Below are positions 5,776 through 55,036 of a stretch of DNA of 64,000 nt, piece after piece (the stretch's first letter is position 1; each line of letters opens with the position of its first letter). The DNA is from Prescottella soli. GTDB lineage: Bacteria; Actinomycetota; Actinomycetes; Mycobacteriales; Mycobacteriaceae. The stretch covers positions 1,984,001 through 2,048,000 of the forward strand of contig NZ_CP157276.1 in NCBI RefSeq assembly GCF_040024445.1. The letters run 5' to 3'. A program made the translations under genes and the position numbers. Below the pieces are notes generated by a model. That model was not told the DNA's origin and searched no databases. It worked only from the letters and a program-made list of their open reading frames with translations.

Positions 5776-6222
5776 ACTAGCCTCACGAACAGCAGCGACC
5801 CCCGAGCCGTCCACTGGCGACGCTCGGGGCGTCGTGCGTGGAGTTCCGGTCTGGACACGACCGGACGACTCGGGGGTCGGGTAGCTGCCTGGGATTCGCC
5901 AGCCGCGGTGCAGGCGAGCCGATGGCTCGCTCCGCAGGCTCCGCTCGCGCGAATTCCGAGAGCATCGTGGCTAGCTGACAGCCACCTCACGTGTCCGTTT
6001 GTCATTCAACTTCAGACCACCTCCTTCCTCGTGTACGCCCGAAGCTACGCCCGGCCCGAACACTCGGCAACGGGTTTTTCGGTGGAAGTGACCCACGAAA
6101 CGAACGAGCCCCGTCCTGGACGCTTCCAGGACGGGGCTCGATTCCTTGCTGCAATGCCCTGAACGGGAGTTCACGGCACGTTTTCACGGTCGGACCGTGT
6201 CGTGAATTCCCGTTCGGCGGTA
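5776..6222. other. 447-bp intergenic region with hairpins
   Basis: No plausible gene is seen. It contains two competing hairpins at 5797-5878 (a stem CCCGAGC/GCTCGGG at 5801-5828, and a longer-range 10-bp pairing of 5797-5806 with 5869-5878) and a strong hairpin at 6106-6139. Short frames here have no ribosome binding site or protein-like composition. Confidence 0.6.
6106..6139. terminator. hairpin terminator after the secreted DUF11-like gene
   Basis: A perfect 14-bp stem (6106-6119 with 6126-6139) encloses a 6-base loop. On the minus strand it lies about 84 bases beyond the stop at 6223 and is followed by a T-rich run; it may also stop plus-strand transcription. Confidence 0.65.
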
Positions 6223-7008
6223 CTAGCTGGCGCTCTTGAGAACGTTGCTGATGATGTCGCCGATGAAGCCGGCCGGGTTCTCGATGATCGCCGAGCCGGC
6301 CGACCCGGTGGTGCCGCCTGCACCGTCGGAAGATCCGAAGCCCAGGTTCGCCGATCCGGTGGTCACGGTCTCGCCGGGGTTCTGCGGGCGGATCGTGGTG
6401 TAGGCGCCGATCGGGTTGAACTTCTGGGTCGAGCCGAAGAGGTTGACGTTGAAGCTGACGCCGCTGTCGAGGTGGGCCCCGACCTTGGCGTCCTGCGGCA
6501 CGAGGTACTGGAGTTCGACGGTCACGGTCTTGCTACCCGTCGTCGACAGCGCCCAGCCGGCGCCGTTCTCGACGCTGACCGTCCCGTTGGCCGCGTCGAC
6601 GACCGCACTGACGGGCTCCGTCTTCTGGCCGCCGATCAGGTGCCACGCATTGACCTTGGCACTGCCCTGGACGTAAGTGAATCCGGCGGGATGGTGGTCG
6701 ATGACCTTGGCCAGGTACCGGTCGGGGTGGCCGGTGAGCGAGAACGTCGTCCGATAGGTCACCTTCTGACCGGGTGCGACGGAGCCGCCGACGACCTCCT
6801 TGGTGACCTTGATGTTGTCAGTCGTCTTCGTGGCCGAACTGGGGTATTCACCCGCGTTCTCACCAGCGCTGCCGGAGGAACCGAGCGATCCGAGCGAACC
6901 GGTTGCCGGTGCGGCGAAGGCCGTACCCGCTCCGAGTCCGATTCCTCCCGCGAGCACGGCCGCGGCGGCAACGGAGGCCGCGACGCGGCGAGACAGAGGT
7001 CGAGACAT
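6223..7008 (-). CDS. secreted protein with DUF11-like beta-sandwich domain, paralog 1
   Basis: This 261-aa protein has a Sec signal peptide (MSRPLSRRVAASVAAAAVLA, cleavage near AFAAPA), a Gly/Ser-rich linker, and one beta-sandwich domain resembling DUF11/isopeptide-type surface modules (VTYRTTFSLTGHPDRYLAKVIDHHPAGF). It ends with a short helix, PAGFIGDIISNVLKSAS. A paralog with the same layout lies at 33378-34100. ATG 7008 is preferred because GGAG lies 9 bases upstream; the frame extends to 7071. Two KstR-like palindromes lie upstream (7057-7070 and 7238-7251), suggesting sterol-linked control. The function is unknown. Confidence 0.82.
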   Translation of the reverse strand: MSRPLSRRVAASVAAAAVLAGGIGLGAGTAFAAPATGSLGSLGSSGSAGENAGEYPSSATKTTDNIKVTKEVVGGSVAPGQKVTYRTTFSLTGHPDRYLAKVIDHHPAGFTYVQGSAKVNAWHLIGGQKTEPVSAVVDAANGTVSVENGAGWALSTTGSKTVTVELQYLVPQDAKVGAHLDSGVSFNVNLFGSTQKFNPIGAYTTIRPQNPGETVTTGSANLGFGSSDGAGGTTGSAGSAIIENPAGFIGDIISNVLKSAS

Positions 7009-7056
7009 GTACCAATCTCCTTCGTTCGTCCTGACGAGGGGGAAATCAGGATGGTG

Positions 7057-7070
7057 TAGAACACGTTCCA
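7057..7070. promoter_or_regulatory. KstR-like box 1
   Basis: TAGAACACGTTCCA matches the mycobacterial/rhodococcal KstR pattern TnnAACnnGTTnnA. It is centred about 55 bases upstream of the ATG at 7008. Confidence 0.5.
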
Positions 7071-7237
7071 ATATCGACTCGCCAAACTGCGCATACCGTG
7101 CACATTTCGGTGAATGCGATCACATGATGCCACCAATCCGGACGTTCGTCCAAAGATGCAGGACAGCAGGTAGCGGCACATTTTACGGACCGAAACATGT
7201 AACAGTCGACATGGCCTTTACGATTATCGGCCGAAAG

Positions 7238-7251
7238 TAGAACGCGTTACA
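7238..7251. promoter_or_regulatory. KstR-like box 2
   Basis: TAGAACGCGTTACA also matches TnnAACnnGTTnnA. It lies 180 bases further from the secreted-protein gene, in the AT-richer stretch 7080-7260 between that gene and cydC. Confidence 0.4.
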
Positions 7252-7289
7252 GTATGACGGATCCGTGAGGGCTGAGCCGTTAGCCGTGG

Positions 7290-9017
7290 TCAGGAGTGGC
7301 GCGCCGAGTCGAACCCGGCACGTTCACTGACACGATCCACCGGGACGCCCCGACCGTTGCCCACCGTCACGACCCGGTCCGCGTGCGTCGTCGGTGGCAA
7401 CTGGTGAGTGACGAGGACCACGGTGCGGTCCGCGTCGACGAGCACGGAATCCCGGTCGAGTAGCGCGCACAGCATCGCCGCTCCGTCGGTCGCGTCGAGG
7501 TGTTCGGTCGGCTCGTCGAGCAGGAGCACCTGCGCCGGCGAGACCAGCGCGCGGGCCAACAGCAGCCGTCGACGCTGCCCGCCCGAGATCGCCCGGGCAC
7601 CACCGCCCAGCGGCGTGTGCACCCCGCGCGGGAGCTGGGACACCCACTCCCCCAGCCCCACTGTCGCCAGCGCTTCGAGGGCCTGCTCCTCGGTGAGGTC
7701 TCCGCGGGCGACGCGCAGGTTCTCGAGCACCGACGTGTCGAACACGTGGGCGTCCTCGGCGAAGAAGCCGATCCGGTGGCGCAGATCGTCCGGCCGATAC
7801 TGCTCGATCGGCACGCCGTCGGCCGACACCGTCCCGTCGACCGGCGGCAGCAGGCCGGCCAGGGTCATCAGCAGCGTCGTCTTCCCGGCGCCGCTCGCAC
7901 CGACAATCGCGATGCGGCTGCCCGGCGCGATGTCCAGATCGAGCGCCGCCGTCACGCGTTCGCTGCCCGGCCAGCCGCATCGCAGATCCCGGGCCCGAAT
8001 GTGACCGGGCCCGACCGGCACCTCGGTCCCCGCGGGCTGCGGTTCCCCGGCCCGGTCGACGAGGGCGAGAATCCGCCCCGACGCGATCCGGGCCCGGGTC
8101 AGTGCGATCGCCGCCGCAGGCAGCGCTCCCGTCGCCTCGAACGCCGCGAGCGGAACGAGGACGACGATCGCCAGCGACATCGGCGTCATGCCCCCGGGAG
8201 CCCCGCCGTCCGGCCCATAGAGCGCGATGCCGATCAACAGGGACCCCAGCACGCTCGCCCCGATCGCGAGCGGCGTGGCGGCCGCCGCGAACGCGGCCGG
8301 CATCGCCGCCCGGTCGGTGGCGCGCACGGCGTCCCGGTTCGCGTTCTCGGCACCGGCGAGGACGTCGTCCAACCGTCCGGCCACCCGCAACTCGGCGGCG
8401 TGGTCGAGCGCGGTCACCGCGGTCTCGCTGAACAGTGCCGTCGCCGCGGCACTGTCCGACTCCGCCAGACTCGCGGCCCGGGCCGACAGCCACGGCGCCA
8501 GCACCCCCGACACGGCGAGCGCCACTGCCAGCACCGCCGCGGCGGCCGGCGAGATCAGCCCGAGCAGAACCACTGCGGACAGGGCCAGGATCACCGAGAC
8601 GGCGATCGGGATGATCGCCCGGACCACCACGTCGCCGAGCGCGTCGACGTCGGCGCCGGTGCGCGCCAACAGGTCTCCGCGACGAAGACCGGCCGCGGCC
8701 GCGGGATCGCCGTCGGCGAGGCGGCGGTAGAGCATCGTCCGAGCCGACGTGGTGCCGCGCAGCGCGGCGTCGTGCGTCGCCAGGCGCTCGAGGTAGCGGA
8801 AGATGCCGCGGGAGATACCGAGGGCGCGCACGGCGACCACCGCGACCGACAGGTCCAGCACCGGCGGCATCTGCCACGCGCGGGTGATCAGCCACGCCGA
8901 AAGCGCCGCCAGCGCGAGTGCGCTCCCGAGCGTCGCCACACCCGCGGCGATCGCGGCCAGCACCCGCCGCGGCTGCAGATCCAGGAGGCGAAGCGCCCGC
9001 AGCAGATCACGATTCAT
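7290..9017 (-). CDS. cydC: thiol reductant ABC exporter subunit CydC
   Basis: Fused membrane/ATPase ABC protein of 575 aa. The N-terminal half has six hydrophobic helices; the C-terminal half has Walker A GASGAGKTT, signature SGGQRRRLLLARAL and Walker B LLLDEPTEHLD. CydDC exports cysteine and glutathione to the periplasm and is needed for assembly of cytochrome bd. ATG 9017 is used because it overlaps the cydD stop by 11 bases; the frame is open a few codons further. It is the last gene of cydABDC. No clear terminator is seen after the stop. Confidence 0.92.
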   Translation of the reverse strand: MNRDLLRALRLLDLQPRRVLAAIAAGVATLGSALALAALSAWLITRAWQMPPVLDLSVAVVAVRALGISRGIFRYLERLATHDAALRGTTSARTMLYRRLADGDPAAAAGLRRGDLLARTGADVDALGDVVVRAIIPIAVSVILALSAVVLLGLISPAAAAVLAVALAVSGVLAPWLSARAASLAESDSAAATALFSETAVTALDHAAELRVAGRLDDVLAGAENANRDAVRATDRAAMPAAFAAAATPLAIGASVLGSLLIGIALYGPDGGAPGGMTPMSLAIVVLVPLAAFEATGALPAAAIALTRARIASGRILALVDRAGEPQPAGTEVPVGPGHIRARDLRCGWPGSERVTAALDLDIAPGSRIAIVGASGAGKTTLLMTLAGLLPPVDGTVSADGVPIEQYRPDDLRHRIGFFAEDAHVFDTSVLENLRVARGDLTEEQALEALATVGLGEWVSQLPRGVHTPLGGGARAISGGQRRRLLLARALVSPAQVLLLDEPTEHLDATDGAAMLCALLDRDSVLVDADRTVVLVTHQLPPTTHADRVVTVGNGRGVPVDRVSERAGFDSARHS

Positions 9018-10740
9018 GGGACGCACCGACTTCCTGACGGGCCTCGACCTCGATCACCCGGTCACCGACGGCGAGCACGCTCGGCCGGTGCCCCACCACC
9101 ACGACCGTGCGTCCGGTGCGGGCGAGTGCCCGCAACGACGTCAACACCGTCCGCTCGGTGTCGTCGTCGAGGTGCGCGGTCGGTTCGTCGAGCAGCAACA
9201 CCGGCCGCGGCGACACGAGCAGGCGGGTGAGAGCGAGCCGCTGGCGCTGGCCGAGCGACAGTCCCAGTCCCCCGGCGCCGACCACGCTGCCCCAGCCGTG
9301 CGGCAACTCCTGCAGCACGGCGTCGAATCCGGTTGCCCGGCAGGCCTGCCGGACCTCGTCGGAGTCGACGTCGATGTCGCCGGCGAGCGCGAGGTTCTCC
9401 ACCAGCGTCCCGGGAACGATGACCGGATGCTGCGGGAGCCACGCGATCTGCGCCCACCAACCGGACGGGTCTAGGTCCTCGACGTCGACCCCGGCCACGG
9501 AAACCGAACCGTCGTCGGGGGCGGTCAGCCCCAGAACTGTCTGCAGCGCAGTCGACTTCCCCGATCCGTTGGCACCGGTCAGCACCGTCACCTCGCCGGG
9601 GACACAGCGCGCGTCGAGTCGGTGAGGGGCCGTCCCCGACCGGGATCGCACACTCACACCGGCGAGTTCGACGACGGCGCCGTCCGCCACGACCTCTGCG
9701 GTGCCGGACGCGTCACGGCGTGGCGCCTGGTCGAGCACTCCGAAGGCCTTGCTCGCGGCGGCGAGCCCGTCCTCGGCCGCGTGGAACTGGGTGCCGACCA
9801 TGCGCAGCGGCAGATACACCTCGGGCGCGAGGATGAGCGCGATGATGCCGGGCTCGAGTTCCATGTTGCCGAACACCAGGCGCAGGCCGATGCTGACGGC
9901 GATGAGCGCCACCGACAGCGTCGCGAGCAGCTCGAGCACCATCGACGACAGGAACGCCACGCGCAGCGACGACATCGTGGTCTTGCGGTGTGCGTCACCG
10001 AGTTCGCGGACCCGCGTGGCCGGGCCGTGTTCGCGGCCCAGGGCCCGCAGGGTCGGCAGGCCGGCGATCAGGTCCAGCAGCTGCCCCGACAGCCGGGTGA
10101 GGGCGGCGAGCGTCTGCTCGGACTTCCCCTTGGTGAGCATCCCGATCAGGATCATGAACACCGGGATGAGCGGCAGCGTGACGACGACGATCATCGCCGC
10201 GGTCAGGTCCTGGAAGGCGATCACCAGGAACGTCGCCGGCGTGAGCGTGGCCGCCAGGATCAGCGCCGGCAGGTAACCGGTGAGGTAGGGCGCGATCGCC
10301 CGCACCCCCCGGGTGAGCACGGTCGCGATCTCGTCGCGGCGCGGATCCAGCGTGCGGGGCGGCATCCGCACCGCGGCCTGCAGGACCTCGACCTCGAGTT
10401 CGGAGACGACGCGGTTGGCCGAGCGGTGCGCGTAGCGCGCGTGCAGCCACACCGCCAGCACCCGCACCGCCACGGCGACCGCGAGCCACGTCAGCTCGGT
10501 CCGCCAGTCCGCGACGCTGCGCCGATCCGAGGTGATGACGCCGGCCAGGATCGTGCCGATCAGGACGGCCGACGCGATCACCATCGCGACGTTGACCGCC
10601 GACAGCACCACCGTGAGGATCAGGTAGCCCCGCGCCGAAGCCGAGTACTTCCACAGACGGGGGTCGACGGGGCCCCCGGATCGTCCTGCGCGCCCCGCCC
10701 GTCGTCGAGCCCGGGCGGGGCGTTCGGTCGCTGTACTCAT
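9007..10740 (-). CDS. cydD: thiol reductant ABC exporter subunit CydD
   Basis: This 577-aa ABC transporter half has six transmembrane helices, Walker A GANGSGKST, signature LSLGQRQRLALTRLL and Walker B LLLDEPTAHLD followed by an H-loop (VVVVGHRPS). It pairs with CydC to export low-molecular-weight thiols. The start at 10740 overlaps the cydB stop by 4 bases (ATGA), so the two are translationally coupled. A basic Arg/Ala-rich N terminus precedes the first helix. The frame continues upstream to 10878 but that part is antisense to cydB. Confidence 0.93.
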   Translation of the reverse strand: MSTATERPARARRRAGRAGRSGGPVDPRLWKYSASARGYLILTVVLSAVNVAMVIASAVLIGTILAGVITSDRRSVADWRTELTWLAVAVAVRVLAVWLHARYAHRSANRVVSELEVEVLQAAVRMPPRTLDPRRDEIATVLTRGVRAIAPYLTGYLPALILAATLTPATFLVIAFQDLTAAMIVVVTLPLIPVFMILIGMLTKGKSEQTLAALTRLSGQLLDLIAGLPTLRALGREHGPATRVRELGDAHRKTTMSSLRVAFLSSMVLELLATLSVALIAVSIGLRLVFGNMELEPGIIALILAPEVYLPLRMVGTQFHAAEDGLAAASKAFGVLDQAPRRDASGTAEVVADGAVVELAGVSVRSRSGTAPHRLDARCVPGEVTVLTGANGSGKSTALQTVLGLTAPDDGSVSVAGVDVEDLDPSGWWAQIAWLPQHPVIVPGTLVENLALAGDIDVDSDEVRQACRATGFDAVLQELPHGWGSVVGAGGLGLSLGQRQRLALTRLLVSPRPVLLLDEPTAHLDDDTERTVLTSLRALARTGRTVVVVGHRPSVLAVGDRVIEVEARQEVGASHES

Positions 10741-50927: not shown

Positions 50928-50933
50928 TATTCT
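50928..50933 (+). promoter_or_regulatory. -10 hexamer of the B12 riboswitch transcript
   Basis: TATTCT would start transcription near 50940, just before the riboswitch. Confidence 0.45.
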
Positions 50934-50946
50934 TCACGTTGTCGTC

Positions 50947-51098
50947 ACGGTGTTCGGGAAGTCCGGTAGAAGCCGGCGCGGTACTCGCCACTGTGGGCAG
51001 GTACGTCGACTACTCGGGGTTCGACCCCAGCCACTGGATGCGCATGCATCCGGGAAGGCGTAGTCGGCGGTCATCCCTGCCGAGCCAGGAGACCGGCC
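50947..51098 (+). promoter_or_regulatory. cobalamin riboswitch (AdoCbl/B12 aptamer)
   Basis: The region carries the ordered marks of a cobalamin aptamer: GGAAG-TCCGGT near 50958, GCGCGGTACTCGCCACTGTG around 50977-50996, a variable stem region, and the closing B12 box GAGCCAGGAGACCGGCC at 51082-51098. It precedes the binding-protein gene of a BtuFCD-type importer. Downstream, TTCCA (51119-51123) can pair with TGGAA (51131-51135), hiding the GGAAGG before TTG 51147, which fits translational repression by cobalamin. Confidence 0.88.
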
Positions 51099-51146
51099 GT
51101 GACGCAAACCTGCACGTTTTCCACGAGTCATGGAAGGCGGGTCGCT

Positions 51147-52133
51147 TTGCGCACCCACGTCACGCCGCGGATCGTCGCGGCCACGGCGATCACGATCGCC
51201 TCTGCTCTCACCCTGTCCGCCTGCGGCGGATCGTCGAACTCGGACGCCGCCGCCGCGTCGATCTCCCTGCAGAACTGCGGTCGCACCGTCACCATGCCCG
51301 GGCCCGCCGAGCGCGGCGTCACCCTCAATCAGGGTGCCACCGAGTCGGCGCTGTCGATCGGCGCGCAGGACCGGATGGTCGGCACCGCATACCTCGACGA
51401 CGTCGTCGCGCCGCAGTGGCAGGCCGCGTACGCGCAGGTCCCGGTGCTCGACGAGAAGAGCTACCCCAGCCGCGAGGCACTGCTCGAGACCAAGCCGGAC
51501 CTGGTACTGGCGTCGTACTCGAGCGCGTTCGGCGACAAGGGCGTCGGCTCGCAGGAGTCGTTCGACGAACTCGGCATCGCCACCTACGTCTCCCCGTTCG
51601 GCTGCAAGGACAAGTCGAAGCGGCCGCCCGTCGCGTGGGATTCGATCGCTACCGAGATCACCGACTACGGCACCCTGTTCGGCCACGAGGCCGAGGCGCA
51701 GTCCCAGGCCGCCCAGATGCGCGAGACCCTCGCGGGCGTCGAGGCCGCTGCCCCGGCGAAGGGCAGGACCATCTTCTGGTACGACAGCAAGACCACCACG
51801 CCGTACGTCGGGGGCAACGCCGGCGGACCCCAGCTGATCATCGACGCGGTCGGCGGCTCCAACATCTTCGCCGGCATCAACGGCGCGTGGGCCGACGGCA
51901 GCTGGGAGACGGTGCTGAAGGCGAACCCGGACGTCATCGTCCTGGCCGACGCCTCGTGGGACACGGCCGAGGCGAAGAAGGAGTACCTCCGCAACGATCC
52001 GGCACTGAAGGATCTGAAGGCCGTGCGTGACAACGCCTTCGTCGTGGTGCCGTTCTCGACGACCACCCCCGGCCCGCGGCTGATCGAAGGCGCGAGCCTG
52101 GTGGCCGGGCAACTAGGCGGCGAACGGGCATGA
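51147..52133 (+). CDS. ABC transporter substrate-binding lipoprotein (BtuF-like)
   Basis: Class III periplasmic binding protein of 328 aa. The signal peptide RTHVTPRIVAATAITIASA ends in the lipobox LSAC, so it is a lipid-anchored receptor. The mature part (MPGPAERGVTLNQGATESALSIG) has the two-lobe helical-backbone fold used for cobalamin, siderophores and heme. Control by a B12 riboswitch points to cobalamin or a corrinoid as ligand. TTG 51147 (GGAAGG upstream) gives a standard signal length; GTG 51099 is in frame but falls at the riboswitch edge. The stop overlaps the permease start (ATGA). Confidence 0.85.
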   Translation: MRTHVTPRIVAATAITIASALTLSACGGSSNSDAAAASISLQNCGRTVTMPGPAERGVTLNQGATESALSIGAQDRMVGTAYLDDVVAPQWQAAYAQVPVLDEKSYPSREALLETKPDLVLASYSSAFGDKGVGSQESFDELGIATYVSPFGCKDKSKRPPVAWDSIATEITDYGTLFGHEAEAQSQAAQMRETLAGVEAAAPAKGRTIFWYDSKTTTPYVGGNAGGPQLIIDAVGGSNIFAGINGAWADGSWETVLKANPDVIVLADASWDTAEAKKEYLRNDPALKDLKAVRDNAFVVVPFSTTTPGPRLIEGASLVAGQLGGERA

Positions 52134-53188
52134 GCGTGACGACCCGGGTGCCGGCCCGGGTTGCTGCGATGCCCGCGGCCGGCTGGTCGGCGGTGCTGGT
52201 CGCGCTGCTCCTGGTGAGTTGCGCGGCCGGCGTCGCGATCGGTGCGGCCGATCTGTCGATCGGCACCGTGCTGCAGGCGATCGGCGGTCGACTCGGGATC
52301 GGCGACGGCACCGACCTGCTCACCACGCACATCGTCGTCGATCTGCGGATGCCGCGGGTGCTGGCGGCCGCGGCGATCGGCGCCGGCCTCGCGCTCTGCG
52401 GCGCCGTGCTGCAATCGCTGACCGGAAACCAGCTGGCCGATCCATACCTGCTCGGCATGTCCGGGGGCGCGTCGCTCGGCGCGGTCCTGTCCCTCACCAC
52501 CGGCGCGACAGCCGTGGGCGCGTTGGGTTTCGGCGCCGTCTCGTCCACCGCGTTCGTCGGCGCACTCGGAAGCCTGCTGCTGGTGTTCGCCATCGCGACG
52601 TCCCGGTCCGGTGCGCTGATGCCCAATCGCCTCGTCCTCGCCGGAATCGCGGTGGGGCAACTCACGGCAGCCTTGACGTCGGCCCTGGTGATGCTCGGAG
52701 ACCGGGACGCGGCGCGCCGGGTGCTGGACTGGACCCTGGGCTCGGTGGCCGGCGTGCGGTGGTCGGGCCTGATCAGCATTCTGATCGTCCTCGCACTGAC
52801 CACGACCGTCATGCTCGCCCACAGCCGGGTGCTGGACTCGTTCGCGTTCGGTGAACGGGCCGCCGCGAGCCTCGGCACCGACGTCGAACGCTCCCGCTGG
52901 GTGCTGTACGCGACCGCGTCGCTGTGCACGGCGGCGCTCGTCGCGCAGGCCGGGATCATAGGCTTCGTCGGGCTCGTCGTGCCGCATGCGGCCCGCATGC
53001 TCGTCGGACCGCTGCACGCCCGCCTGCTTCCCGCCGTGGCCCTCCTGGGCGCACTGCTGCTGGTGTGGGCCGACATCGCGGCCCGCACCGTACTACCGGG
53101 ACGCGAATTGCCGATCAGCGTCGTCACCGCCGTCGTGGGAGTCCCGGCGTTCGTGTGGCTGCTCCGCCGACGAGGAGCGCAGGCATGA
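52130..53188 (+). CDS. FecCD/BtuC-type ABC permease
   Basis: The protein is 352 aa with about ten helices. LRMPRVLAAAAIGAGLALCGAVLQSLTGNQLADPYLLG is the FecCD signature, and GFVGLVVPHAARMLVG the ATPase-coupling region. It forms the membrane channel of the corrinoid-type importer. ATG 52130 overlaps the binding protein stop, and its own stop overlaps the ATPase start. Confidence 0.93.
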   Translation: MSVTTRVPARVAAMPAAGWSAVLVALLLVSCAAGVAIGAADLSIGTVLQAIGGRLGIGDGTDLLTTHIVVDLRMPRVLAAAAIGAGLALCGAVLQSLTGNQLADPYLLGMSGGASLGAVLSLTTGATAVGALGFGAVSSTAFVGALGSLLLVFAIATSRSGALMPNRLVLAGIAVGQLTAALTSALVMLGDRDAARRVLDWTLGSVAGVRWSGLISILIVLALTTTVMLAHSRVLDSFAFGERAAASLGTDVERSRWVLYATASLCTAALVAQAGIIGFVGLVVPHAARMLVGPLHARLLPAVALLGALLLVWADIAARTVLPGRELPISVVTAVVGVPAFVWLLRRRGAQA

Positions 53189-53994
53189 CCCACCACTCGC
53201 CGGAGTTCCGCGTCGACGACGTCACGTGGTCGCTGGACGGCACGACGATCCTCGACGCCGTGACGTGTCGTGCGCCGGCGGGACAGGTCACCGGGCTGAT
53301 CGGCCCGAACGGTTCCGGCAAGACGTCGCTGCTGTCGGCGATCGCCCGACTCACCCGCCCCTCCCGCGGGCAGATCACGATCGACGGGCAGCCTGTGAAG
53401 GCGATGAACCGGCGCGAGTTCGCGCGGACGGTCGCACTGGTGGAACAGCATTCCGCGACCGAACTCGAGCTGACGGTGGAGCAGATCGTCGAGCTCGGCG
53501 TGATTCCGCACCGGGGCGGCTGGGCCCGGCCGGCCGCCGTGGGCATGGCCGACGTGATCACCGAGAGCCTCGCCATGGCGGGAATCTCGGAGCTGCGACA
53601 CCGGTTGTGGCACAGCCTGTCCGGTGGCGAGAAACAGAAGACGCAGCTCGCCCGGGCGTTTGCGCAGCGCCCCTGCGTGTTGCTGCTGGACGAGCCGACC
53701 AACCACCTCGACGTCTCCGCGTCGCTCGAACTGCTCGATCTGATTCGCCGCCGCGGCCTCACGACCGTGGCCGCCATGCACGACCTGAACCTGGCGGCGA
53801 TGTACTGCGACCACCTCGTGGTGCTCAGCGGAGGCACCGTCGTCACCGAGGGCGCGCCCGAGGTCGTGCTCACCGAGGAACTACTCGCGGACGTCTACGG
53901 ACTCGACGCGATCGTGCAGCCCCATCCCCGCACCGGGCGCCCCATGGTGGTGCTGTGCAGCGCCGCCATGGATGTCGAAAGGTCTTCGCCATGA
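53185..53994 (+). CDS. BtuD/FecE-type ABC ATPase
   Basis: The protein is 269 aa with Walker A GPNGSGKTS, Q-loop LVEQHS, signature LSGGEKQKTQLARA, Walker B LLLDEPTNHLD and switch His in AAMHDLN. It energises import through the neighbouring permease. ATG 53185 overlaps the permease stop (ATGA), and the stop overlaps the CbiX-ferredoxin gene. Confidence 0.94.
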   Translation: MTHHSPEFRVDDVTWSLDGTTILDAVTCRAPAGQVTGLIGPNGSGKTSLLSAIARLTRPSRGQITIDGQPVKAMNRREFARTVALVEQHSATELELTVEQIVELGVIPHRGGWARPAAVGMADVITESLAMAGISELRHRLWHSLSGGEKQKTQLARAFAQRPCVLLLDEPTNHLDVSASLELLDLIRRRGLTTVAAMHDLNLAAMYCDHLVVLSGGTVVTEGAPEVVLTEELLADVYGLDAIVQPHPRTGRPMVVLCSAAMDVERSSP

Positions 53995-54746
53995 ACATGA
54001 TCCGACCCACTCGATGGGCGATCGTCACCGCGCCCACCGACCGCGGTGACGATCCCCGCGATCGACTCGGCGGCGCCCTCGAGGTGCTTCGGGAGCGCCA
54101 CCCCGACATCGAGTTCCGCACCGCGGTCCTCGGCGGATCCGGTCCGACGATCGCCGTGGTCCTGGACGAAGCCGCCGCCGCGGGCGCAGCCGAGGTCGTC
54201 GTGGTGAGCGCGCAGACGGTCCTCGACCGCAAGATCGATGCGTGGTTCCGCCGGGTGATCGGACACTGGCTGCGGGAGCGGTCCGGGACGCCGACCCCGG
54301 ACGTGCGAATCGCCGGCCCGCTGAGCGACTCGGCCGGCTACGCCGACATGCTCGGCGCCGCGATCACCGGGTCGACCGCGCCCGCGCGGACCACCACCGC
54401 TCCCCTGACCTCCCCCGCCTGGGACGAGGTGCCCGGCTTCGCACGGCACGTCCTGGTGTGCCGGGGTCCGCGGTGCTCGGCGCGCGGCGGCCCGGAAACC
54501 GCAGCGGCCCTGGACTCGACGCTCGAAACGCGCGGTCTGGGTGACGACGACGTCCTCGTCACCCAGACCGGATGCATGTTCCCGTGCTCTCAGGCACCCG
54601 TTGTCGCGGTGTACCCCGACAACACCTGGTACGGCGAGATGTGCGCCGACCGTGTCGAACGGTTCGTGGACGAGCACCTCGTCGCGGGCCGGCCGATCGT
54701 CGAGTGGCAGGGCGCTCGGCGGGAATCTGCGATCCTGGAGTCATGA
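53991..54746 (+). CDS. CbiX-like chelatase domain fused to a thioredoxin-like [2Fe-2S] ferredoxin
   Basis: A two-part protein of 251 aa. The N-terminal half (about residues 8-135) resembles CbiX/sirohydrochlorin chelatase folds (WAIVTAPTDRGDDPRDRLGG, AGAAEVVVVSAQTVLDRKID). The C-terminal half is a thioredoxin-like ferredoxin with a CRGPRC pair and TGCMFPC pair, expected to hold a [2Fe-2S] cluster. The His pair normally chelating cobalt in CbiX is not evident, so catalysis is uncertain. Its place in a B12-controlled importer operon suggests cobalt insertion or reductive corrinoid processing. ATG 53991 overlaps the ATPase stop; the stop overlaps the Rdx gene. Confidence 0.78.
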   Translation: MNMIRPTRWAIVTAPTDRGDDPRDRLGGALEVLRERHPDIEFRTAVLGGSGPTIAVVLDEAAAAGAAEVVVVSAQTVLDRKIDAWFRRVIGHWLRERSGTPTPDVRIAGPLSDSAGYADMLGAAITGSTAPARTTTAPLTSPAWDEVPGFARHVLVCRGPRCSARGGPETAAALDSTLETRGLGDDDVLVTQTGCMFPCSQAPVVAVYPDNTWYGEMCADRVERFVDEHLVAGRPIVEWQGARRESAILES

Positions 54747-55036
54747 CGACCGCCGCGCCCCGCGTCACCATCACATACTGCACTCAATGCAACTGGCTGC
54801 TCCGGGCCGGGTGGATGGCGCAGGAACTGTTGAACACCTTCGGCACCGAACTGGGCGAGGTGGCAATGATTCCCGGTACCGGCGGGATCTTCCAAGTCAC
54901 CGCAGGCGAGACACTGGTATGGGATCGCAAGCGCGACAGCGGGTTTCCCGACATCGTGACACTCAAGAAATTGGTGCGTGACGCGGTCGTTCCGGACCGG
55001 GATCTCGGGCACGCAGATCGCAAGCACAACGACTGA
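54743..55036 (+). CDS. Rdx/SelW-family CxxC redox protein
   Basis: The 97-aa protein RVTITYCTQCNWLLRAGWMAQELL has the thioredoxin-like Rdx fold of SelW/SelT/SelH with Cys-X-X-Cys in place of Cys-X-X-Sec. GTGGIFQVTAGETLVWDRK is also typical. It probably mediates thiol redox transfer. It overlaps the preceding gene by 4 bases, so it is the fifth gene of the B12 riboswitch operon. Confidence 0.85.
   Translation: MTTAAPRVTITYCTQCNWLLRAGWMAQELLNTFGTELGEVAMIPGTGGIFQVTAGETLVWDRKRDSGFPDIVTLKKLVRDAVVPDRDLGHADRKHND

Follow-up and report, generated by a model that had tools for sequence, protein, structure and literature searches.

What does a bacterium gain from an operon that is placed behind a cobalamin riboswitch and encodes, besides an ATP-binding cassette (ABC) importer, a single protein joining a chelatase-like domain to a ferredoxin? 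The question is raised by a locus of Prescottella soli located in a stretch of 64,000 nucleotides (assembly GCF_040024445.1, contig NZ_CP157276.1, positions 1,984,001 to 2,048,000), hereafter the window. A first interpretation, the sequence-only reading, proposed that imported corrinoid or cobalt is processed redox-chemically by a dedicated pair, formed by the fusion protein and by the SelW-like CxxC protein (Rdx) encoded by the last gene of the operon. The genomic comparison places the fusion in corrinoid and cobalt metabolism, with a strong link to B12 riboswitches. Within that setting cobalt supply is the function that we favour over corrinoid processing, as an unproven proposal derived from sequence comparison, and Rdx is probably a passenger.

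Riboswitches and neighbours of the fusion gene

The fusion was found in 34 of 151 sampled genomes of the host's family, and in all 34 loci, that of the window included, an aptamer of family RF00174 is located upstream of the gene run containing the fusion; the matches of the other 33 loci all reach the gathering score, while the chance value for a riboswitch beside one gene is, as a rough estimate, 0.0015. Among these 33 loci, 24 carry genes for a binding protein, a permease, an ATPase and the fusion, eight (L050-L057) only for a binding protein and the fusion, and one (L064) has a lone fusion gene directly behind the riboswitch. The genome with this divergent lone fusion (G081) also holds a transporter operon without adjacent fusion (L249), each being placed behind its own cobalamin riboswitch.

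A set of 80 named loci, the best 80 of 163, was scanned with R1, a covariance model made with 24 riboswitches from fusion-bearing loci, which replaced a consensus-motif search that was too insensitive. From the 108 matches of R1 only those on the plus strand and upstream of the fusion entered the tally, the weakest match used being that of L123 (E 6e-7). A cobalamin riboswitch precedes the fusion in the same gene run in 62 of the 80 loci; the gene caller had skipped the fusion in one locus, giving 61 of 79, and that locus (L114), with its riboswitch upstream of a BtuF-like gene, was added by hand. An Rfam rescan of 33 of the 80 loci agreed with R1 throughout (17 with an upstream aptamer, 16 without), and RF00174 is present somewhere in 78 of 78 genomes searched (L119 left out), a figure that is silent on position. 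A search across the phylum matched 144 of 396 genomes, mostly through the ferredoxin part only among the matches listed, and this count is not used. The closest named relatives of the window fusion are those of Prescottella and Rhodococcus. Gordonia hydrophobica has two copies of the transporter-fusion operon (L088 and L089), one of them without a detected riboswitch.

From the 18 named loci without an upstream riboswitch, 16 lie in cob clusters and the others are L089 and L102, the latter with a cbtA-like gene and an adenosylcobalamin (AdoCbl) riboswitch downstream of the fusion. The clusters include cobN, cobF, cobQ and cobK, and the identity of the neighbours CobN, CobF, CobQ, CobK, CobIJ, CobH, CbiB, CobO, CobT, CobS and CobU was confirmed on one representative each, that of CobG scoring below its NCBIfam cut-off. 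Genes resembling cbtA and cbtB are located near the fusion in several Nocardioides loci, cbtB being read by eye and cbtA through a cluster member 42% identical to a Pfam-verified CbtA. On a rapidly built tree with 88 rows (the window, 79 named loci and, from the 33 family loci, 8) changes of partner were counted: 8 are required for the label 'with transporter or its binding protein' and 6 for 'in cob cluster', of which well-supported branches force at least 5 for each label; hence the fusion family has repeatedly swapped partners within the same theme. The co-occurrence with B12 riboswitches that the sequence-only reading had proposed to look for across actinobacteria is borne out, both in the family and in the named loci. 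The 18 riboswitch-less named loci adjoin cob, cobalt-transport-like or importer genes; the Rdx gene lies mostly away from the fusion.

The association extends to deeper relatives and to plasmids. In two of four deep relatives (L245 and L246) a CobW gene directly precedes the fusion. The deep actinobacterial locus L247 has, at 6551-9539, the fusion, two substrate-binding proteins (SBPs), a permease and an ATPase, a FUR-family regulator and a G3E GTPase being encoded nearby, and L248 shows the order SBP, riboswitch, fusion, SBP, permease, ATPase, with the transporter genes identified by eye; one of the four relatives has a detected riboswitch. Six alphaproteobacterial plasmid loci were examined, out of seven listed matches that include part of the N-terminal domain (H48 was left out), and in all six a cobalamin riboswitch recognized by R1 (four by Rfam) precedes the fusion or its operon. 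In four of them (L254, L256, L260 and L261) the gene behind the fusion encodes a Nik/Opp-class SBP_bac_5 protein; in L255 and L257 the fusion accompanies Peripla_BP_2/FecCD genes and a TonB receptor, with nikR beside L255. In Azospirillum brasilense (L255:1-4538) a CobN-ExbB-DUF2149 cluster also lies immediately before the riboswitch and the fusion operon. A Rhodococcus pyridinivorans plasmid (L258:779-6783) carries the transporter and the fusion; genes for an ArsR-family regulator and for a further binding protein precede them, and merA follows. A suspected linkage of the related transporter on plasmid p1 of Rhodococcus M8 to nitrile hydratase was discarded, none being annotated within 17 kb, where no fusion is annotated either. 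The plasmid records examined label the fusion family as '(2Fe-2S) ferredoxin domain-containing protein' and once as an oxidoreductase subunit E.

The fusion protein and its operon

The fusion is, judging from its predicted structure, a chelatase-fold domain and a [2Fe-2S] ferredoxin in one protein, as the sequence-only reading had recognized. Its ferredoxin half matches 2Fe-2S_thioredx (PF01257) with 25.0 bits, barely over the cut-off of 24.8, and the four cluster cysteines are kept in all 80 members of the alignments used for residue counts, the window protein among them; a cluster would be assembled on these ligands. The other half of the window protein does not match the CbiX family PF01903 in a Pfam search, even at E<=1. 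The label 'CbiX-like' is given by its relatives, 36 of the 80 members matching PF01903 at E<=1 (best 4.8e-9), by a profile-profile comparison (96% probability) and by the predicted fold, since the AlphaFold model (predicted local distance difference test score, pLDDT, 91.6; predicted template modelling score, pTM, 0.79) matches the class II chelatase domain of CbiX/SirB together with a thioredoxin-like [2Fe-2S] ferredoxin. At the column that hhalign aligns with the first catalytic histidine of CbiX none of the 80 members has a histidine; the second catalytic histidine falls beyond the aligned stretch, and no column from 72 to 86 is conserved as histidine (at most 14 of 80, in column 83). W85, R88, H92 and W93 of the lobe are conserved, the helix that bears H92 carrying also W85, R87, R88 and W93. 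With the first catalytic histidine gone and the second not conserved, the cobalt insertion that had been considered for this half is unlikely.

Table 1. Positions in the window of the riboswitch, the five genes of the operon and the domains of the fusion.
Feature	Positions	Strand	Evidence
Cobalamin riboswitch aptamer, RF00174	50931..51115	+	covariance model 80.4 bits against gathering score 31.5, E 3.3e-18, full-length match
Substrate-binding lipoprotein, Peripla_BP_2, BtuF/CbtJ-like	51147..52133	+	PF01497 110.6 bits; TTG start (likely)
FecCD-type ABC permease	52130..53188	+	PF01032 284.3 bits
ABC ATPase (ABC_tran)	53185..53994	+	PF00005 115.8 bits
Fusion, 251 aa, degenerate CbiX-like domain and thioredoxin-like [2Fe-2S] ferredoxin	53991..54746	+	
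Chelatase-fold domain of the fusion, residues 7-138	54009..54404	+	
[2Fe-2S] ferredoxin domain of the fusion, residues 150-247; Cys157, 162, 195, 199	54438..54731	+	
Rdx, SelW-like, CTQC; last gene of the operon	54743..55036	+	PF10262 105.3 bits against cut-off 22.6

The riboswitch and the five chained genes behind it (Table 1) are confirmed, all four junctions reading as 4-base ATGA overlaps. The longest frame of the lipoprotein gene begins at GTG 51099, inside the riboswitch, and the likely start is TTG 51147, preceded by GGAAGG. From the gene labels first assigned, the lipoprotein, permease and ATPase families, the ferredoxin and Rdx stand by Pfam; 'BtuFCD-like' is loose, since the NCBIfam cut-offs for B12 transporters are not reached: BtuF 28.9 bits against 234, BtuC 212.3 against 334 and 216.8 against 461, BtuD 117.4 against 281 and the corrinoid ATPase 220.9 against 537. 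The best NCBIfam model of the lipoprotein is TIGR03868 ('F420-0'), at 273.5 bits with a cut-off of 392.4, and the other two transporter proteins also remain below the cut-offs of the 'F420-0 ABC' models (TIGR03868/69/73; 295.4/437.35 and 304.7/372.4), the siderophore models EitA and EitC being next best for the lipoprotein and the ATPase. An 'F420-0 ABC transporter' model is matched by 50 of 50 lipoproteins scanned, the window's and 49 relatives'; the F420-0 label of this clade may deserve review, with cobalt or corrinoid as the alternative. Among solved structures the permease scores 159 bits with FhuB, 153 with HmuU and 133 with BtuC, and the one closest to the lipoprotein, 4mlz, is titled only 'periplasmic binding protein'.

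The substrate of the transporter would be cobalt, by analogy with Sinorhizobium meliloti. An operon on its plasmid pSymB consists of a cobalamin riboswitch and genes for an SBP, a permease and an ATPase that are 30, 45 and 46% identical to those of the window. CbtJKL, encoded on pSymB under an AdoCbl riboswitch, imports Co(II) and was first taken for a cobalamin transporter, CbtJ resembling BtuF (PMC7689651, excerpt). Similarly, two B12-riboswitch-led members of NikABCDE have been treated as exceptions to nickel specificity (PMC2667541, excerpt), and on the strength of that excerpt cobalt fits the Nik-type operons of Alphaproteobacteria.

The Rdx protein is near the solved structures 2fa8, 2oka and 2obk, and its gene often occurs apart from the fusion. 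It is present in 78 of the 151 family genomes and adjoins the fusion in 12, so that a role as dedicated partner is ruled out; moreover, 55 family genomes encode Rdx but no fusion and 11 a fusion but no Rdx, and the 'dedicated pair' had to be given up. Rdx occurs somewhere in 23 of the 34 fusion genomes (P 0.026, uncorrected) and, among the 80 named loci, is encoded behind the fusion in 11, all of them from Rhodococcus, Prescottella or Speluncibacter; it is probably a passenger in Rhodococcus/Prescottella operons.

The host genome (5.48 Mb) has other cobalamin-type aptamers, located before metE, before a cluster with ChlID-like, cobO and cobB-like genes (AdoCbl-II) and, with a score under the cut-off, ahead of a cbtBA-like pair, the gene names of the cluster and the pair being assigned by eye. 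It encodes two ordinary two-lobe CbiX/SirB proteins. It also encodes CobN, and should hence make B12 by late cobalt insertion. CobN was found in 60 of 60 fusion genomes tested (the 34 of the family and 26 chosen from the genomes of the 80 named loci) and in the four deep relatives tested. Elsewhere in the window, the small RNA family Ms_IGR-5 (RF02471) is matched at 5790-6034 on the minus strand (115.3 bits).

Cobalt supply or corrinoid processing

We propose, with a confidence that falls just short of even, that the locus is a B12-riboswitch-controlled cobalt-acquisition operon in which the fusion acts as a cobalt-handling factor. In the model, low intracellular cobalamin would lead the riboswitch to permit expression of the operon. 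The lipoprotein, permease and ATPase would import cobalt, either as Co2+ or in chelated form, as CbtJKL does in S. meliloti. In the cytoplasm, the single class II chelatase lobe of the fusion, having presumably lost catalysis, would dock or hold cobalt, a tetrapyrrole or a chelatase, and its [2Fe-2S] cluster would reduce the imported cobalt or keep it as Co(II). The metal could then leave the fusion and reach CobN, the late cobaltochelatase, with CobW as intermediary in genomes that have it; the Rdx gene would be an incidental member of the operon. The list of partners favours cobalt because importers of different classes, CbtBA, CobW and CobN share the step of cobalt supply, whereas BtuFCD and CobN alone would share that of corrinoid reduction.

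The latter step is the core of the main rival, corrinoid salvage, which we regard as possible and less probable. Here the transporter would import cobalamin or cobinamide, and the fusion would bind the corrinoid on its chelatase lobe and reduce its cobalt, for decyanation or, ahead of the adenosylation step of CobO, from Co(II) to Co(I), and would likewise serve newly made cob(II)yrinate after CobN. The Nik/Opp-type importers, cobW and the cbtBA-like genes found by the fusion are not readily explained in this way; the BtuF, BtuC and BtuD cut-offs are not reached, the permease is closer to FhuB and HmuU than to BtuC, and CobN, a frequent protein in any case, is present in all fusion genomes tested. 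From the original proposal that imported corrinoid or cobalt is processed redox-chemically, the corrinoid/cobalt setting stands, and corrinoid processing is possible, while the neighbours and the precedent of CbtJKL fit cobalt at least as well. That the transporter takes up F420-0 or a siderophore and carries a B12 riboswitch incidentally seems least probable of all: 'F420-0 ABC' models are the best in NCBIfam for all three proteins, match every lipoprotein scanned and are followed by EitA/EitC, but the three proteins score below the cut-offs and most loci are under B12 riboswitch control.

Two further readings assign catalysis to the lobe. The fusion might insert cobalt into a tetrapyrrole as CbiX does, with new catalytic residues such as H92; the class II fold, the conserved W85, R88, H92 and W93 and the presence of the same ferredoxin domain type in haloarchaeal CbiX with N-lobe histidines would agree with it, and chelatases can move catalytic residues between lobes, HemH using a glutamate (PMC7689651, excerpt). 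Nevertheless, an active chelatase appears improbable, given the absence of the first catalytic histidine from 80 of 80 members and of any conserved histidine in columns 72-86, the replacement of H92 by asparagine in 9 of 10 distant members, and a host already provided with CobN and two two-lobe CbiX/SirB proteins. More improbable still is a dechelatase that recycles cobalt by stripping it from corrinoid analogues taken up by the cell, as thought for chelatase relatives with haem. FetB is among the fold matches of the fusion model, and CobN-like BtuS proteins are needed for the assimilation of haem-released iron in Bacteroides fragilis (PMC6460266, excerpt); against this, the first catalytic histidine is missing. 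We know of no precedent for enzymatic removal of cobalt from corrinoids, which counts further against a dechelatase.

Several observations weigh against cobalt supply by a riboswitch-controlled fusion. The riboswitch and the Peripla_BP_2/FecCD family would suit an importer of corrinoids just as well. Nor is every fusion gene led by a riboswitch: no upstream aptamer is seen within the stretches of the 16 cob-cluster loci, and none was detected at L089, where the fusion accompanies a transporter, or at the plasmid copy L258. Transporter operons without adjacent fusion exist (L249 and L250; L251 ends at a contig edge) and the 35-kb pSymB stretch has no match to the fusion or to Rdx, so that the fusion is not needed for import; in addition, this stretch would equate with cbtJKL through plasmid, riboswitch and gene order, its record giving no gene names there. 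Two Nocardioides representatives resembling CbtA and CbtB match no NCBIfam model, and the Pfam identity of CbtA comes from one gene. H92 is kept in 75 of the 80 members and is asparagine in nine of the ten distant family members (L058-L067), and, not being universal, pins down no new metal ligand. Finally, CobN is present in 136 of the 151 family genomes; its occurrence in all 34 fusion genomes has a P of 0.018, ignoring relatedness, and CobN co-occurrence was dropped as statistical proof.

A question still to be settled is how producers of cobalamin by the late pathway load CobNST with scarce Co(II). By calculation CobNST stays unloaded at the Co(II) levels usual in cells, and in vitro CobW held cobalt back; in its GTP-bound form it quenched the chelatase instead of assisting it, and a missing GTPase-activating partner was proposed (PMC10206600, excerpt). 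A wider and more doubtful extension of our proposal is that the fusion represents an undescribed, widespread class of cobalt-delivery proteins, in which a dead chelatase lobe with a [2Fe-2S] ferredoxin takes cobalt from several classes of riboswitch-controlled importers, adjusts its redox state and hands it on to CobN, whether or not CobW takes part, as the partner that CobW-CobNST appears to lack in vitro. No published description of the fusion was found in the literature searched, which includes PMC8305020, PMC8123684, PMC8529089, PMC6593275 and PMC4531530 as excerpts; the fusion is, as far as the searches reach, an undescribed protein of the B12 regulon. Across Actinobacteria and Alphaproteobacteria, a generically annotated protein is linked with B12 riboswitches, with CobN and CobW and with importers of metal type, and riboswitch-led 'BtuFCD' operons may be cobalt importers, a warning for annotation.

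Relation to known systems

The transporter of the window belongs to the same superfamily as BtuFCD (Peripla_BP_2, FecCD, ABC_tran), its proteins remaining below the equivalog cut-offs of NCBIfam. CbtJKL resembles it in the succession of riboswitch, SBP, FecCD-like permease and ATPase and even in having been labelled early as a B12 transporter, but differs in that neither fusion nor Rdx is matched in the pSymB stretch that we infer to hold cbtJKL.

The class II chelatases CbiX, SirB and CfbA (PF01903) share the chelatase fold with the fusion, which differs from them in its single lobe, the lack of the first catalytic histidine, the non-conserved second one and the attached ferredoxin. Closer in design are two haloarchaeal CbiX proteins (L252 and L253), in which a chelatase and the same type of ferredoxin form one chain encoded inside a cobalamin cluster; however, they have two lobes, with both N-lobe histidines present by eye. 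The fusion lobe may or may not derive from the C-terminal lobe of such a ferredoxin-bearing CbiX: it matches N- and C-lobes about equally, N-lobes scoring slightly higher overall. The haloarchaeal loci (L252:10357-11652 and L253:9499-10840) also have, as annotated, a set of cbtB, cbtA and a separate (2Fe-2S) ferredoxin, a pairing of cobalt transporter and stand-alone ferredoxin that is in line with cobalt supply, the small ferredoxin of L252 matching no Pfam family at E<=1e-4.

The ferredoxin half has the fold and the four cysteines of the thioredoxin-like [2Fe-2S] ferredoxins (Aquifex Fd, Azotobacter FeSI and the HydB/NuoE type, PF01257), from which the fusion is set apart by being joined to a chelatase lobe and B12-regulated. 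In function, the nearest counterpart would be CobW, the Co(II) metallochaperone of the late-insertion pathway that works with CobN (PMC10206600, excerpt): CobW is a G3E GTPase unrelated to the fusion, which has no GTPase domain, and yet both would take part in the hand-off of cobalt.

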